64,000 bases of DNA from Actinoplanes cyaneus. Its GTDB lineage: Bacteria; Actinomycetota; Actinomycetes; Mycobacteriales; Micromonosporaceae. Made by a program: the position numbers and the translations under genes. How positions within the stretch are numbered: the first letter of the stretch is position 1; every line of letters starts with the position of its first letter. Below, in pieces: positions 52,911 through 59,383 of this stretch. The notes below the pieces were generated by a model. The model was not told the DNA's origin and searched no databases. It saw only the letters and a list, made by a program, of their open reading frames with translations. The stretch is taken from NCBI RefSeq assembly GCF_016862095.1, contig NZ_BOMH01000013.1:124001-188000 (forward strand). The letters are read 5' to 3'.

Positions 52911-53006
52911 CCGTCGAACTCGACAGCACCAGGGCAAAACACCTCAGAACGGTCCAGTCATGTGCCATGGTGGAAGGGCATCAACGCCTGCCGTGGGGAG
53001 TGGCTC

Positions 53007-54452
53007 GTGGTGGACCGCCGCTTACTGACCGGCATCGGGGGACTCGACGAGGTCCTCCGCGGCGGCTTGCTCGCCCAGCGGGCGTACCTGGTGCGCGGTG
53101 GACCGGGCAGTGGCAAGACGACGGTGGGCTTGCACTTTCTCGCGGAGGGTGTCGCCGCCGGTGAGCCGACGCTGTTCATCAACCAGGGTGAACCGGAGGC
53201 CGAGGTGCGCGCCAACGCCGCGTCGATCGGTCTCGACCTGGTGGGGATCACTTTCCTCGACCTGACCCCGTCGGCGACGTTGTTCACCGAAGGGCAGACC
53301 TACGACGTCTTCCATCCCGCCGAGGTCGAGCTCGAACCGACGACCCAGGCGATCATCGAAGCGGTCAGGCAGATCCGGCCCGCGCGGGTTTTCCTCGATG
53401 CGATGACCCAGCTGCGCTATCTGTCGCTCGACAAGGTGCACTTCCGCCGGCAGGCGATCTCACTGCTGCGCTTTCTCGTCTCACAGGGCGCGACGGTTCT
53501 GTTCGCCTCGGAGAGTCAGCACGCCGACCAGGACGCGGACATGCAATTCATGTCCGACGGCGTGATCCACATGGACAACAACGCCGGGTTACGTACCGTC
53601 ATGGTGTCGAAGTTGCGTGGCTCGGCGTTCGCGCCGGGCAGCCACAGCGTGAGCATCGAGGCCGACGGAATGCACGTGTATCCGCGGCTGACACCCCAGG
53701 AGCACAGTAAGCCGTTCGTCGCCGAGACCCTGTCCTCCGGCGTTCCGGAGATCGACGAGTTGATGGGCGGGGGCATCGAACGTGGCACCGTCACGATCAT
53801 GTCGGGGCCCAGCGGGGTGGGAAAGACCACCCTGGGCCTGCAGTTCATGAAGGAAGCAGCGGGACGCGGTGAGCGCTCGGTGGTGTACACCTTCGAGGAG
53901 AACGCCGAGGTGCTCGCGTATCGGGCGCAGCGGGTCAACATTCCCGTGGCCAACATGGTGGCCACCGGCACTCTTTCCATGGTGCAGATCGAGCCGTTGC
54001 GCTACACCGCCGACCAGTTCGGCTGCATGGTGCGCGATCAGGTGGAAAAGGCCGATGCCCACCTCGTCATGCTCGACAGCATTTCGGGATTCGGGATGTG
54101 CATGCGCGAGGACCAGCCCGAGACGTACCTGCACGCGGTCGCCAAGTACCTGCGCAACATGGGCGTCACGACGATCCTCATCAACGAGACCACCAACATC
54201 ACCGGGGATTTCCGCGCCACCGACAATGCGATCAGTTATCTGGCCGACAACATCGTCTACCTGCGTTACATCGAGATCCACGGCGAACTGCGCAAGGTTC
54301 TCGGTGTGCTGAAGAAGCGGATGAGCGACTTCGAGAAGACCATGCGCGAGTTCGAGATCACCCGGTACGGCGTGAAGGTGGGAGCGGCTCTGACGAACAT
54401 GCGCGGCATCCTTCACGGCACACCGACCCTGGTCGATACACCGCCACGGTGA
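53007..54452 (+). CDS. KaiC-like ATPase with two RecA domains
   Basis: 481 residues, a tandem of two KaiC/RecA domains. Walker A motifs are GGPGSGKTT (31-39) and GPSGVGKTT (about 267-275). The C-terminal part aligns well with cyanobacterial KaiC CII around the phosphosites: the KaiC segment ISTITDT corresponds here to ISYLADN, so Ser410 is kept and the following Thr is Tyr411; Thr405 matches KaiC Thr426. There is no KaiA or KaiB in the window, and rhythmicity is not implied. KaiC-like proteins outside cyanobacteria act in signalling and stress. GTG 53007 is chosen for GGGGAG six bases upstream. A histidine kinase gene follows 66 bases later. Confidence 0.88.
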   Translation: MVDRRLLTGIGGLDEVLRGGLLAQRAYLVRGGPGSGKTTVGLHFLAEGVAAGEPTLFINQGEPEAEVRANAASIGLDLVGITFLDLTPSATLFTEGQTYDVFHPAEVELEPTTQAIIEAVRQIRPARVFLDAMTQLRYLSLDKVHFRRQAISLLRFLVSQGATVLFASESQHADQDADMQFMSDGVIHMDNNAGLRTVMVSKLRGSAFAPGSHSVSIEADGMHVYPRLTPQEHSKPFVAETLSSGVPEIDELMGGGIERGTVTIMSGPSGVGKTTLGLQFMKEAAGRGERSVVYTFEENAEVLAYRAQRVNIPVANMVATGTLSMVQIEPLRYTADQFGCMVRDQVEKADAHLVMLDSISGFGMCMREDQPETYLHAVAKYLRNMGVTTILINETTNITGDFRATDNAISYLADNIVYLRYIEIHGELRKVLGVLKKRMSDFEKTMREFEITRYGVKVGAALTNMRGILHGTPTLVDTPPR

Positions 54453-54518
54453 TCCGGTCATCGCTGTGATCGGCTGCCGATCAGGATCGCATCCCGTCGA
54501 CGGTGGAGGAGGACCGCG

Positions 54519-55592
54519 GTGAGCCGCATCGGGCTGCTCATGCTGCCCGGGGGTAACCGGCAGCTCATCGAGCGGGTGCTGACCCACAACGACTTCGACG
54601 TCGAGGTGGTGGACACCGCCGGGCTGGCGGACTGCCCCGTCGATCTGTTGCTGGCCGACCCTCGCTCGCTGCTGCAGGCGCGTACCGCGGCCGACCGGCC
54701 CGTTCCTGACTCGGCGCCCGCTGACACCGGCTCCTGGTCCGGTCCCCCGATCATGCTGCTGACCAGGGCCTCCGATCGCCCCGGCCTGCCGGAGAGCGTC
54801 CTGATCGCGGCCGACGAGGTCGTCACGATGCCGGCCTCTCAGCGGGAGTTGCTCGACCGGATCAACCGCTTGACGGCCCGGCGGAGGCAGGCCGCGGAAG
54901 AACGCCGCATGACGCGGCTGCACACCGCCCATGTCGTCCACGAGTTGTGTACGCCTTTGCAGGCGGTCCTGGCCTCCGCCGATCTCATGCGCACCGAGCA
55001 CCTCGATCCCGAGCAGTCTGCACTGCTGGACCACATCACCAGGGGCGGCAAACGCATGCTGGACCTGGTCAACGAATTGCTCGACCGGAGCCGCTCCGAA
55101 TCAGGGCACCTGCCCGACCGCACCACCGTGATGGATCCGGCGGAGGCGGTCGACGCCGCGGTCTCGGCCGTCCGCCCGCTCGTCGAACGCCGCAACTTGA
55201 CCGTCACCGTGAACCTTCCTGCCGACGCCGCGCCACAGGTGCGCGCCGACCCGGTTCATGTGCACCGCGTCCTGACCAACCTGCTGTCCAACGCGATCAA
55301 GTACAACCGCGAGAACGGCGCCATAGACGTCCGCATGGACGTTCAACCGGGACGCATCGCGGTGGACGTCGCCGACACCGGCCCCGGGATCGCCCCCGAC
55401 GAGATGGAACGGATCTTCCAGCCGTACGAACGGCTGCCCGGGTCGACCGCCGCCGGGACCGGCCTGGGGCTGCCGTATGCGCGGTTGCTGGCGGAACGCA
55501 TGGGAGGTGCGATCACTGTCGAGTCCCGGGTCGGTCGGGGGAGCACCTTCACGTTCGTGCTGCCGCGGGTGGACGCGGCCCCTCACCGGTGA
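54519..55592 (+). CDS. Soluble histidine kinase with degenerate N-terminal receiver-like domain
   Basis: 357 residues. Residues 1-115 read as a receiver-like fold (IGLLMLPGGNRQLIERVL, then VDLLLADPRSL, then PIMLLTRAS) without the full acidic pocket. A HisKA domain with His141 in VVHELCTPLQ follows (Cys replaces the usual Arg of HELRTPL). The HATPase_c domain has N-box LLSNAIKYNRENG, G1 DTGPGIAPDEM and G2 TGLGLPYARLL. There is no membrane segment, so input is cytoplasmic and may come from the KaiC-like protein encoded just upstream, as in SasA-type partnerships (inference). GTG 54519 with GGAGGAGG upstream. Confidence 0.88.
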   Translation: MSRIGLLMLPGGNRQLIERVLTHNDFDVEVVDTAGLADCPVDLLLADPRSLLQARTAADRPVPDSAPADTGSWSGPPIMLLTRASDRPGLPESVLIAADEVVTMPASQRELLDRINRLTARRRQAAEERRMTRLHTAHVVHELCTPLQAVLASADLMRTEHLDPEQSALLDHITRGGKRMLDLVNELLDRSRSESGHLPDRTTVMDPAEAVDAAVSAVRPLVERRNLTVTVNLPADAAPQVRADPVHVHRVLTNLLSNAIKYNRENGAIDVRMDVQPGRIAVDVADTGPGIAPDEMERIFQPYERLPGSTAAGTGLGLPYARLLAERMGGAITVESRVGRGSTFTFVLPRVDAAPHR

Positions 55593-55697: not shown

Positions 55698-57110
55698 CTA
55701 GAGCGCGACGAACTGGAGACCGCGGGCCTTCAGGGCGGGGATCACGACGCTGAGCGCCTGGTACGTCTGTGAACGATCACCGCCGCCGTCGTGGCAGAGC
55801 AGGATCTGACCCGGCTTGGCGGCCAGCATCCGGTGCTCGATCGTGGTGGCGCCGGGCGTGGTCCAGTCGCGCGGGTCGTTGCTCCAGTCCAGCGGGAGCA
55901 GGCCGGCGTGCGCGACGTCCTTCAGCAACTGGGGGGACCAGTCACCGCCGGGCGAACGGAACAGCTTGGGCACGTACCCCGTCGTCTGGCTGATCTTCGC
56001 CTGGGCTTTCTGCAACTCCTTGCGGGCGACCCGGCTCGGCTTGGCCCCCAGTTTCGTGGGGTGGCTCCAGGTGTGGTTGGCCAGTTGGTGGCCGTCGCCG
56101 GTGACCATCTTGGCGACGGTCTCGTGGCCGAGCACCTGATTGCCGATCATGCAGAACATCGCCGGGACGTGGTACCTCTCCAGCAGTTGCAGGATCTTCG
56201 GCGTCCAGATCGGGTGCGGGCCGTCGTCGATCGTCAGCGCGATCGCGTCGGTGGGGAACGCCTGGCCGCCGGTGGCCTTCGCGTACTCGGCGAGCGTGGA
56301 GATCGGCTTGCGCTGCACCGGGATCGGTGACGCGGTCACGGTCGCGCTCTCCGGGGCCCGCGACGTGACGACGGCCGGTTGCGCCGGGGTGGGCTTCGCG
56401 GCGTCCTTCCCGGAGTCGTCGTCGCCGGCGTTGACGGCGATGGCGGTCGCGGTCAGCGCCACGCCCGCCGCGCCGGAAAGGCCGAGGATGAGCCGGCGGC
56501 GGGTCAAGCGGGAGCCGCCCGGCTGTGCCGGTGCGGGAGCGGGAGCGGGCTGCACGGGAGCGAAGGCCGGTTGCGCCGGGACGCTCCTCGAGGCCATCGC
56601 CGCGGGGATGGCGATCGTCGCCTCTTCCTGCGGGGTGACGGCCCGGAAAGGAGTCGTCGCCTCGTCCGCGGCGGAGATCGCGATCGTCGCCTCGTCCGGT
56701 GGGGTGCCGACCGGAATCGCCGTCGTCGCCTCGTCGGACGACGTTCCGGCCCGCATCACCGTGGTCGTCTCGTCCGACGTCGAATCGGCCGTCATCGCCT
56801 CGGTGGGCTCGTCCGCCCCGACCCCGGCCGGAATCACCGTGGTGGCCTCGTCCGCCGGGTTCTCGTCCCGGACAGCCGCGGTGGGCTCGTCTGCCGGGAT
56901 CGTCGCGGTGGGTTCGTCGGCGGTGACCACCGCGGTGGGTTCGTCGGCCGGAATCACCGTGGTGGGTTCGTCGGCCGGGATCGCCTCCGTCACCTCGTCC
57001 GCGGTGCCGGCGGCCGGGATCGCGACGGTGGCCTCATCCGGTGTCCCGGCGTCTTTTGCCTGCTCGGACGGGCCTTCTCCAGGTTTCGTCACCCTGGACT
57101 CGTCGGACAT
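55698..57110 (-). CDS. Membrane-anchored polysaccharide deacetylase with N-terminal DE-x-T repeats
   Basis: 470 residues. Residues about 24-165 contain 13 short repeats of the form D/E-E-x-T-x-x-(I/V/M/F), many followed by Pro. A Pro/Ala linker and one hydrophobic helix follow an RRR motif (RRRLILGLSGAAGVALTATA, about 202-225). A short linker then leads to a NodB polysaccharide deacetylase (about 285-470) with motifs TIDDGP, HTWSHP, RSPGGDWS, DWSNDPRDW and LLCHDGGG. The enzyme would remove acetyl groups from peptidoglycan or chitin-like glycan outside the cell. The positive-inside rule puts the repeats in the cytoplasm; TRRRLILG could instead be a Tat signal. ATG 57110 has GGGGAGG upstream. 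Confidence 0.9.
   Translation of the reverse strand: MSDESRVTKPGEGPSEQAKDAGTPDEATVAIPAAGTADEVTEAIPADEPTTVIPADEPTAVVTADEPTATIPADEPTAAVRDENPADEATTVIPAGVGADEPTEAMTADSTSDETTTVMRAGTSSDEATTAIPVGTPPDEATIAISAADEATTPFRAVTPQEEATIAIPAAMASRSVPAQPAFAPVQPAPAPAPAQPGGSRLTRRRLILGLSGAAGVALTATAIAVNAGDDDSGKDAAKPTPAQPAVVTSRAPESATVTASPIPVQRKPISTLAEYAKATGGQAFPTDAIALTIDDGPHPIWTPKILQLLERYHVPAMFCMIGNQVLGHETVAKMVTGDGHQLANHTWSHPTKLGAKPSRVARKELQKAQAKISQTTGYVPKLFRSPGGDWSPQLLKDVAHAGLLPLDWSNDPRDWTTPGATTIEHRMLAAKPGQILLCHDGGGDRSQTYQALSVVIPALKARGLQFVAL
56602..57040 (-). repeat. Degenerate tandem repeats encoding 13 DE-x-T-x-x-hydrophobic units
   Basis: The repeats GACGAG-xCG/CC-ACx encode the DEATVAI/DEPTTVI-type units of the deacetylase N-terminus. 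Spacing varies from 9 to 15 residues. The Thr and the hydrophobic residue three places later are conserved while the rest drifts, as expected for selected binding motifs. Confidence 0.8.
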
Positions 57111-57224
57111 CAGTTGCCTCCCCATCGGCGCCGCGGCGGCCGGTACGTGAACCCGGCTCACCAGCGGGCGACGCTATCACTCCCGGTCAATTTCAACCGA
57201 AAGGATGACATTTATCGATCAAAC

Positions 57225-58421
57225 TCAGGCGACGAGAAATCGTCCCGACATGAAAACCACCAGGAACACGGCGTGCAGCGACACCCCGATCACCAGCACC
57301 GCCCGGTCGACGGCCGGCCGGGCGCCGATGCGCGCCAGCACCAGCAGGATCGCCACCGCCTCCATCGCATACCGCGCCGCGGACTGCATCGACCGGCCGC
57401 CGACCTCGGTCGACATCAGCAGGATCAGGGTCAGGGCACCCTGCACGACCAGGTAGAGCTGGTCGCGCCGGAACTTCCACGGCCCCGCCACGGCGAGCAC
57501 CAGCAGCACCACCGCGACCAGGGTCGTGCCCGCGTCCACGAGCGCGCCCAGCGTCGACGTCTCCAAGGGCCCGCCCATCTGCTGTACGGCGGTGACCCAG
57601 GCCCCGCCCGGGACCGTGTACCGCCGCCCCCACTGGTCCTGCGCGACGCTGAACGCCAGCGGATTGCCGAGCTCGATCGCGCAGTACACGCTGTAGGCCA
57701 CCACCCCGAGCGGCACCAGCGCCAGGCTCAGCACGTCGGCCCGGATCCGCCGGGGCTGCCAGCCCCGCTGCCGCAGGTACTCGATCGCCAGCGGCGCCAC
57801 CAGCAGCAGCCCGAAGAGCCGCGTCGCGGACGACAGCGCGCCAAGTGCCCCGGCCACCCACCAGTGCCCGCGCCGGCCGGCGTACAGCGCGCCGACGGCC
57901 AGGAGCAGGAACAGCGACTCGTTGTAGCCGATGAACAGGAAGAACCCCATCGGGAACGCGGCCAGGTACCAGGTGGCGCGCTGGGCCACCCGCGGCCCGA
58001 ACTCGTGCTCGGCGAGCCGATGCAGAACGGCCAGGGCGCCGTACGCGCAGAGGTTGGCGACGACCAGCGCCGCGACCACTCCGTCACCGGGCAGCACCGG
58101 ATTCACCACGTGCACCAGCAGCGGGAACAGCGGGAAGAACGCCGGGAAGCCCGGACCCAGGTGGTAACCGCTCTCCGCGATGCGCACGTAATGGCCGGCA
58201 TCCCAGCTGTTCCAGCCCAGCACCATGGTCCACAGCTCCGGCGCCTTCCCTCCGCGCGGCAGCCACGCCAGCGCGCTCACCGCCAGGTGCGTCACGGTGA
58301 ACACCGCCCACACCGCCAGAGCCGCGCGCAGGGCCGCGTGCCAGGGGCGCCGGGAAGATTCGAGCAGTTCCTCCGGTACGGCGATCCGGGTCGCCGTGGT
58401 GTCCTCGATCAGAGCTGGCAC
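57225..58421 (-). CDS. PIG-V-like membrane mannosyltransferase (GT-C fold)
   Basis: 398 residues with ten or more membrane helices. After the first helix comes WNSWDAGHYVRIAESGY, the conserved Asp-containing loop of PIG-V/Gpi18-type GT-C transferases that use polyprenol-phosphate mannose. SSATRLFGLLL matches a later conserved segment. It probably transfers mannose to a lipid or protein outside the membrane. GTG 58421 lies inside the 3' end of the GT2 gene, whose product could make its lipid-linked donor. GAGG upstream. Confidence 0.87.
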   Translation of the reverse strand: MPALIEDTTATRIAVPEELLESSRRPWHAALRAALAVWAVFTVTHLAVSALAWLPRGGKAPELWTMVLGWNSWDAGHYVRIAESGYHLGPGFPAFFPLFPLLVHVVNPVLPGDGVVAALVVANLCAYGALAVLHRLAEHEFGPRVAQRATWYLAAFPMGFFLFIGYNESLFLLLAVGALYAGRRGHWWVAGALGALSSATRLFGLLLVAPLAIEYLRQRGWQPRRIRADVLSLALVPLGVVAYSVYCAIELGNPLAFSVAQDQWGRRYTVPGGAWVTAVQQMGGPLETSTLGALVDAGTTLVAVVLLVLAVAGPWKFRRDQLYLVVQGALTLILLMSTEVGGRSMQSAARYAMEAVAILLVLARIGARPAVDRAVLVIGVSLHAVFLVVFMSGRFLVA

Positions 58422-59383
58422 AGCACGTCCTCGATCGACTCGTTCTCGGATACGGAATCGAACGCCACGACGTACGCGGGACGGCCCTGCAGCGTGGTGA
58501 AGATGCGCGCCACGTACTCGCCGAGCAACCCCAGGCAGAGCAGTTGCAACGCGCCCAGGAACAGCACCGCGACGAGCAGCGACGTCCACCCGGGCACGAC
58601 GTTGCCGGACAGGTAGGCCGCCCCGCCGGCGAGCGCCAGCACCCCGCAGAGCGCGATGCCGAGCACCCCCAGCCAGGTCGCGACCCGCAGCGGCGCGGCC
58701 GAGAAGCCGACGACACTGTCCAGGGCCAGCCGGATCATCTTGGCGAGCGGGTACTTCGAGCGGCCCGCGGCTCGCTCCTCCCGCGTGTAGGTGACCTCGC
58801 CGCTGGGCAGACCCAGCCACGGCACCAGCAGGCGGTAGACCGGCAGCTGCTCGGGCAGCTCGGTGAGCGCGTCGACGGCGGTCCGGCTGAGCAGGCGGAA
58901 GTCACCCGCGTTGTGCGGGACCGCGGTGCCGGCCACGCGCCGCATCAGCCGGTAGTACAGCCCGGCGGTCCAGCGTTTGAACGGGCTGTCGGTGCTGCGG
59001 TCGGCGCGGACGCCATGCACCACGTCCAGGTTCGCGTCCTGCGCCAGCCGCAGCATGTCGCCGATCGCCTCGGGCGGGTCCTGCAGGTCGACGTCGATGC
59101 TCACGACGTACGCCCCGCGGGCGCGACGCAGGCCGGCGGTGAGCGCGTTCTGGTGCCCGCTGTTGCGCCGCAACCGGACCACCCGCAGCTCCGGCCACCG
59201 GCGGCGCAGCCAGTCGAGCACGATGGGGGTGCTGTCCCGGCTGCCGTCGTCGACGGCGACGACCTCGTACGGCACGAGAAGACCGTCGAGCACGGGACGC
59301 ACCCGTTCGGCGAAGAGCGGCAGCACCTCCTCCTCGTTGAAAACCGGTACGACAACGCTCAGTCGTGGCGCCTCGCTACCCAT
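58409..59383 (-). CDS. GT2 polyprenol-phosphate glycosyltransferase (DPM1/GtrB-like)
   Basis: 324 residues. The N-terminal GT-A domain has VVVPVFNEEEVL, VVAVDDGSRDST, the DxD-type IDVDLQDPPE and GVRADR. Two C-terminal membrane helices (about 233-300) match the GtrB/ArnC type. It makes polyprenol-phosphate mannose or glucose on the cytoplasmic face. The stop overlaps the PIG-V-like gene by 13 bases, so donor synthase and transferase are co-produced. ATG 59383 with GGGGAG upstream. Confidence 0.92.
   Translation of the reverse strand: MGSEAPRLSVVVPVFNEEEVLPLFAERVRPVLDGLLVPYEVVAVDDGSRDSTPIVLDWLRRRWPELRVVRLRRNSGHQNALTAGLRRARGAYVVSIDVDLQDPPEAIGDMLRLAQDANLDVVHGVRADRSTDSPFKRWTAGLYYRLMRRVAGTAVPHNAGDFRLLSRTAVDALTELPEQLPVYRLLVPWLGLPSGEVTYTREERAAGRSKYPLAKMIRLALDSVVGFSAAPLRVATWLGVLGIALCGVLALAGGAAYLSGNVVPGWTSLLVAVLFLGALQLLCLGLLGEYVARIFTTLQGRPAYVVAFDSVSENESIEDVLCQL

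Follow-up and report, generated by a model that had tools for sequence, protein, structure and literature searches.

Introduction

In mycobacteria, single phosphothreonines (pThr) link Ser/Thr kinases to cell wall synthesis. The phosphosite of GarA/OdhI is ETTSVF, and kinase motifs are reportedly the subject of a study by Prisic et al. In Mycobacterium, the disordered tail of CwlM contains a pThr that is preceded by an acidic residue, has Phe at +3 and is described as binding the FHA domain of FhaA in the control of the wall (PMC6180346), and PonA1, a wall synthase, is reported to be tuned through a cytoplasmic Thr phosphorylated by PknB (PMC4483258). Phosphopeptides lowered by PknA/PknB inhibitor were 88% pThr and enriched in Glu-x-x-pThr, with pSer also made in this pathway and Thr amounting to 48% overall among the sites reported (PMC5845002). 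On the reader side, Rv0020c is described as binding DivIVA via pThr only, while another FHA domain accepted pSer as well (PMC4238996). In Streptomyces, a T17A substitution in the cellulose synthase CslA is reported to impair glucan synthesis (PMC13432765). pThr/FHA docking in wall control is thus known already.

The gene described here lies in a 64,000-nucleotide stretch of the Actinoplanes cyaneus genome (hereafter, the window), and its product joins a deacetylase to a long N-terminal tail of Thr-centered repeats. This tail recalls CwlM–FhaA in the sequence context of its Thr residues, in its predicted disorder and in its proposed connection to FHA domains and the wall, and it recalls PonA1 in the probable arrangement of a wall enzyme outside and an N-terminal tail inside. 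The likeness to ETTSVF lies in an acidic residue near the Thr and a hydrophobic residue at +3. However, CwlM is a soluble regulator with one main and one helper site rather than 13 copies on a deacetylase, PonA1 has one reported site and, in the part of the report considered, no FHA reader (PMC4483258), and GarA is soluble with few sites. If the reading preferred below is true, a 13-copy, Thr-keeping array on a wall-editing enzyme and on other families would make such docking multivalent and tunable, and the array would provide a sequence rule to find kinase/FHA clients in actinobacterial genomes.

A CE4 deacetylase with a 13-fold repeat tail

The start codon of the gene was picked from the GGGGAGG upstream and the MSDE-like N-terminus of the homologues (Table 1). 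From N- to C-terminus, the protein consists of a repeat tail of ~200 residues, a twin-arginine motif with a hydrophobic segment, and a CE4/NodB-type deacetylase domain, which bears out the order proposed in an earlier note on this DNA (repeat tail, RRR plus hydrophobic segment, NodB deacetylase).

Table 1. Position of the deacetylase gene and its features in the window.
Feature	Position	Strand	Basis or detail
Deacetylase gene with repeat tail	55698..57110	-	ATG 57110, stop 55698-55700; 470 aa + stop
Probable ribosome-binding site GGGGAGG	57117..57123	-	Sequence, upstream of ATG
Array of 13 (D/E)-E-x-T-x-x-(I/V/M/F) repeats, residues 25-168	56607..57038	-	Motif count
Repeat 1, DEATVAI	57018..57038	-	
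Repeat 2, DEVTEAI	56979..56999	-	
Repeat 3, DEPTTVI	56952..56972	-	
Repeat 4, DEPTAVV	56925..56945	-	
Repeat 5, DEPTATI	56898..56918	-	
Repeat 6, DEPTAAV	56871..56891	-	
Repeat 7, DEATTVI	56832..56852	-	
Repeat 8, DEPTEAM	56793..56813	-	
Repeat 9, DETTTVM	56754..56774	-	
Repeat 10, DEATTAI	56715..56735	-	
Repeat 11, DEATIAI	56676..56696	-	
Repeat 12, DEATTPF	56646..56666	-	
Repeat 13, EEATIAI	56607..56627	-	
Twin-arginine motif TRRRLILG and hydrophobic segment, residues 203-228	56427..56504	-	Sequence, homologues
CE4/NodB deacetylase domain, residues 269-470	55701..56306	-	Pfam, fold match, alignment

The catalytic domain is readily assigned, with a match to Pfam Polysacc_deac_1 (PF01522) over residues 285-404 (100.5 bits vs. 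a cut-off of 23.1), a sequence match to the PgdA-type 5o6y (E 6.9e-30) and a fold match to 4l1g (E 9.6e-17). Eight residues are invariant in 31 aligned sequences (D295, D296, H346, H350, R385, P387, D415, H440), which we take to be the metal-binding and catalytic residues. The Actinoplanes enzyme thus has its CE4 fold and catalytic residues in common with the PgdA-type peptidoglycan deacetylases 5o6y and 4l1g, but differs from them in its repeat tail and in scoring under the NCBIfam equivalog cut-offs for NodB and PgdA (TIGR04243, 149.5 of 240; NF045821, 107.1 of 400).

The 13-fold array claimed in the earlier note was confirmed at exactly this count, with repeats spaced by 9, 10 or 13 residues: the pattern [DE]E.T..[IVMF] matches 13 times in the 203-aa tail, vs. 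a mean of 0.09 in 1000 composition-preserving shuffles. A looser form, [DE]xTxx[ILVMF], reaches 14 per 200 residues here and at most three in any other of the window's 146 stop-to-stop frames that span 200 aa or more. The Thr of the 13 repeats is encoded by ACC in eight cases and ACG in five. Rich in Ala, Pro and Thr, the tail is predicted to be disordered, ten-residue means of pLDDT being 37-58 up to residue 260; these low values run across the hydrophobic segment, so that the structural model is neutral on a helix there. Most of the catalytic domain is predicted at pLDDT >90, residues 411-430 and 441-450 being less confident. Used as a BLAST query against its own genome, the tail matched only itself, and tandem DNA patterns in which the D/E codons were fixed recovered this gene alone, or none, from the same genome.

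Conservation of Thr and of the +3 residue

The earlier note had proposed a homologue comparison, with a freely replaced Thr as the outcome that would count against it. We counted the central residue in 23 tails, found mainly via the catalytic domain, using a flank-anchored pattern in which the center was left free ([DE]x?xx[ILVMF]). Across 390 sites, which are not independent events because repeats within one gene are related, the center was Thr in 289, Glu in 31, Ala in 25, Lys in 16, Asp in 14, Val in five, Pro in four, Gln and Ile in two each, and Ser and Gly in one each, some of the Glu, Lys and Asp centers seeming by eye to be out-of-register matches. Collapsing these sites to 356 distinct flank contexts left Thr in 260 and Ser in one, whereas outside the motif positions of the same tails Ser makes up 49% of Ser plus Thr. 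Thr is therefore not freely replaced, and the comparison came out as the note had anticipated: Thr and the hydrophobic +3 are retained, Ser is nearly absent and the spacers drift.

Among 354 [DE]xT sites, +3 was hydrophobic in 82%, compared with 63% at +1 (mostly Val), 16% at +2 and 9% at +4. An acidic residue occupied -3 in 42% of these sites, the Glu/Asp at -2 being fixed by the search pattern. Glu is found mainly at -2 in these tails, vs. -3 in the PknA/PknB motif as reported (PMC5845002), and the Streptomyces PkaI sites described in PMC4416010 do not, by eye, fit the repeat motif. Two properties of FHA ligands, Thr rather than Ser at the site and a selected residue at +3, are present in the sequence.

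At the nucleotide level, Thr codons vary across the homologues, ACG accounting for 107 and ACC for 99 of the 269 anchored sites. When adjacent repeats are compared, it is at the Thr that the largest fraction of codon differences is synonymous (0.48). Such variation is predicted by selection on Thr and not by recent copying alone, so fresh DNA copying was ruled out as the sole cause of the array.

Distribution, gain and loss of the tail

In a whole-protein search of 67 Actinoplanes genomes, the matches listed above 240 bits came to 39 loci from 38 genomes; the tail raised some of the scores, and short homologues were picked up through the catalytic part. The N-terminal part was examined in all 39. 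Of these, 23 have a long tail containing 5-22 copies of the loose motif (0.25-1.9 in shuffles), with spacers and copy number varying among them; the other 16 have no motif, 15 carrying short leaders and one (L019) a 114-residue tail, which indicates that the enzyme works without the array. At the family level, 13 of 150 genomes match at E up to 1e-65, and six homologues from other genera have no array, one of them having a single motif.

With the tail-bearing set defined from motif counts ahead of tree building, tail-bearers fell in three places on the catalytic-domain tree (13 in one group, nine in another, and L024). Well-supported branches force at least three tail changes, and a single clade of tail-bearers was rejected (p-AU 0.00047). 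Arrays that keep the core but differ in their spacers were thus gained or lost several times.

The gene has no conserved neighbor within reach of the available flanks. Five neighbor genes were compared with 53 loci, most of which had ~1.5 kb of flank or less and 12 of which had 5 kb, and the matches were the own locus (L007) and, in L070, a weak one to the histidine kinase at 30% identity. When the 12 loci with 5-kb flanks were compared together with the window, L044 and L046 had neighbors in common, and other pairs were connected by two isolated ORF matches. In the window itself, positions 52962-55592 hold a double-domain KaiC-like ATPase adjoining a histidine kinase on the opposite strand, and positions 57225-59383, upstream of the deacetylase gene and on its strand, hold genes for a PIG-V-like mannosyltransferase and a GT2 glycosyltransferase.

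Similar arrays on other actinobacterial proteins

A profile built from 38 triple-repeat windows (A1) identified two more own-genome proteins. The first, on contig C16 (173000-176500; E 0.0067), is a membrane protein of ~382 aa that has no match in Pfam; it has hydrophobic helices at the N-terminus and, at the C-terminus, a motif tail that includes VETTVFR, which resembles the GarA/OdhI site. The other, on contig C28 (229500-233500; E 0.02), is mechanosensitive-channel-like and combines a long coiled coil of the EEARRA type with a motif-bearing tail. Counting the own genome, A1 matched 11 of 61 family genomes at E up to 0.01. These matches comprise PASTA proteins with the array ahead of the helix (L113 and L116 by Pfam, L120 by eye), a MurJ with three N-terminal motif copies (L118), a DUF881 protein (L124), a DBI_PRT protein (L117), likely relatives of the C16 protein (L115 and L121, by eye) and an array protein without family assignment (L114); L119, with one motif, is probably a chance match.

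A broader profile (A2), holding windows of the two own-genome proteins and of the A1 family-genome matches, extended this to at least 17 of 296 class genomes at E up to 0.001 (up to 25 candidates scored per genome), including the own match L145, which is there by construction since A2 contains own-genome windows. Two Pfam-confirmed kinases, L144 and the PASTA kinase L139, have the motif between kinase domain and helix, and arrays occur on a transglycosylase (L128), an MMPL protein (L127), an MscS-like protein (L140) and a further PASTA protein (L138), all by Pfam, with a DivIVA match just above cut-off for L136. L129 has a thymidylate-kinase domain by Pfam, and L130-L134, L142 and L143 are similar by eye; these proteins combine a coiled coil with DETAVLPPV-type arrays. 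No Pfam match was obtained for L135, L137 or L141, the last of which resembles StkP (E 4.8e-9). As neither thymidylate kinase nor DBI_PRT is an envelope family, the array class extends beyond envelope proteins. L113, L116, L120 and L138 have a cytoplasmic motif array, a single helix and, on the outer side, one PASTA domain; these are possible receptor-like partners of wall kinases.

Over these other families (30 loci in 14 groups, leaving out L119 and duplicates), the central residue was Thr in 167 and Ser in none of 202 sites, a count that leans to Thr because both profiles were derived from windows that contain it. The earlier note knew of no deacetylase of this design: among the matches listed in the open-licence literature, we found no description of a multicopy array on a deacetylase or of its recurrence across families, but such tails are not peculiar to the deacetylase.

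Topology

Wherever the segment could be placed (37 of the 39 homologues), RR lies directly ahead of the helix, as found by a script that looked for a basic pair. The short homologues carry ordinary twin-arginine signals, and VNA-G follows the helix in the A. cyaneus protein. The stretches that bear similar arrays elsewhere (juxtamembrane in two kinases, ahead of the helix in PASTA proteins, N-terminal in one MurJ) are presumably cytoplasmic, as is usual in these families. Via Sec or Tat alike, the tail should probably remain inside: Tat signals are described as docking at the cytoplasmic face in hairpin form (review, PMC7317946), so that Tat export would still leave the repeats inside. The earlier note had read RRR and one helix as placing the repeats in the cytoplasm, and had named Tat export as a topology that would put them outside. 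The inside placement remains the probable one, but RRR has to be reread as part of a twin-arginine motif and, given hairpin binding, Tat export should not carry the repeats to the outside. Cleavage after the helix, if any, would leave the tail on a membrane stub and weaken an anchoring role.

Proposed multivalent docking and its alternatives

With its Thr retained, almost no Ser, and recurrence on other envelope proteins, the array resembles a tag for multi-site docking in kinase signaling. We put at about even the chance that the tail is a multisite kinase substrate, or multivalent pThr docking tail, read by FHA proteins and belonging to a wider class, a judgment drawn from sequence patterns and from the described systems. 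Several findings weigh against it: the own-genome kinases and the Actinoplanes MurJ loci lend no support (see below), the homologues from other genera and 16 of 39 within the genus are without the array, no neighbor is conserved as far as the flanks extend, Glu lies mainly at -2 rather than -3, the PkaI sites do not fit by eye, and one FHA domain is reported to accept pSer as well (PMC4238996). In this scheme, the CE4 deacetylase would be targeted to the membrane with its disordered tail kept in the cytoplasm, PknB-type Ser/Thr kinases would phosphorylate the repeat Thr, pThr-specific FHA proteins would bind several repeats at once, and the bound tail would cluster or position the enzyme, or gate its export, in step with wall synthesis. 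More tentatively, acidic-x-Thr-x-x-hydrophobic may be a general motif of multicopy disordered tails on numerous envelope and kinase proteins, providing, once phosphorylated, multivalent FHA landing strips that cluster wall-building and wall-editing proteins under kinases across the actinobacteria; the 13-copy deacetylase tail would then be a clear instance.

The acidic-x-Thr context and the preference for Thr would suit selection by a kinase equally well if no FHA reader existed and charge alone shifted membrane association, clustering or export; we consider this unlikely, as the exclusion of Ser is stronger than expected from a kinase alone, given that pSer is also reported in the PknA/PknB pathway (PMC5845002). 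Somewhat less probable still is that the motif is a short linear motif read directly, and unphosphorylated, by some adaptor: a fixed core with drifting spacers on unrelated proteins would fit, but Ser or Val should then replace Thr now and then, and they do so at only one and five of the 390 sites, respectively. An export gate, in which the tail is an oversized Tat n-region whose bound partners hold or release the enzyme and which is shed after cleavage, draws on the RR ahead of the helix, on the twin-arginine signals of the short homologues and on the VNA-G behind it. Arrays on proteins without a Tat signal speak against this gate, which we regard as improbable as the whole explanation, although it is compatible with pThr docking.

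We give slightly less credence again to a low-complexity spacer or repeat expansion that has no specific reader. An Ala- and Pro-rich, disordered tail whose copy number turns over and which 16 of 39 homologues lack is what such an expansion might leave, but the shuffle counts, the Thr kept despite varying codons and the several separate lineages argue otherwise. Finally, the GT2 and PIG-V-like genes upstream and the abundance of Ala, Pro and Thr could suggest a tail outside the cell with O-mannosylated Thr. This is barely credible and was ruled out on topology, with RRR ahead of the helix; moreover, these neighbors are not conserved with the gene and the same motif occurs in kinase juxtamembrane stretches.

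Kinases, MurJ and FHA domains of the genus and genome

The pThr docking reading includes the claim of the earlier note that the protein is a platform tying kinase signaling to wall editing. This claim passed the comparative test above but drew no support from the own-genome kinases or from Actinoplanes MurJ. Own-genome kinases (36 matches, 30 as loci, 25 scored) contained five motifs vs. 4.9 expected, i.e., no enrichment, two of them at one locus (L200). For MurJ, none of 20 Actinoplanes loci had three or more motifs; L188 had two and four others one (that of L192 lying beyond the tail). Five more loci of other MurJ copies were also examined, some probably in the wrong frame.

Candidate readers are encoded in the genome, which has five FHA domains above cut-off. 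On contig C2 (250303-250491), a 153-aa GarA-like FHA frame lacks ETTSVF and has DVTSTLNL in its N-terminal part. One FHA domain of the genome is close to the solved FHA domain of TB39.8 (FhaA; E 2.7e-22), and this FhaA-like gene is adjoined by a second FHA gene, with two kinases within 8 kb on the same contig.
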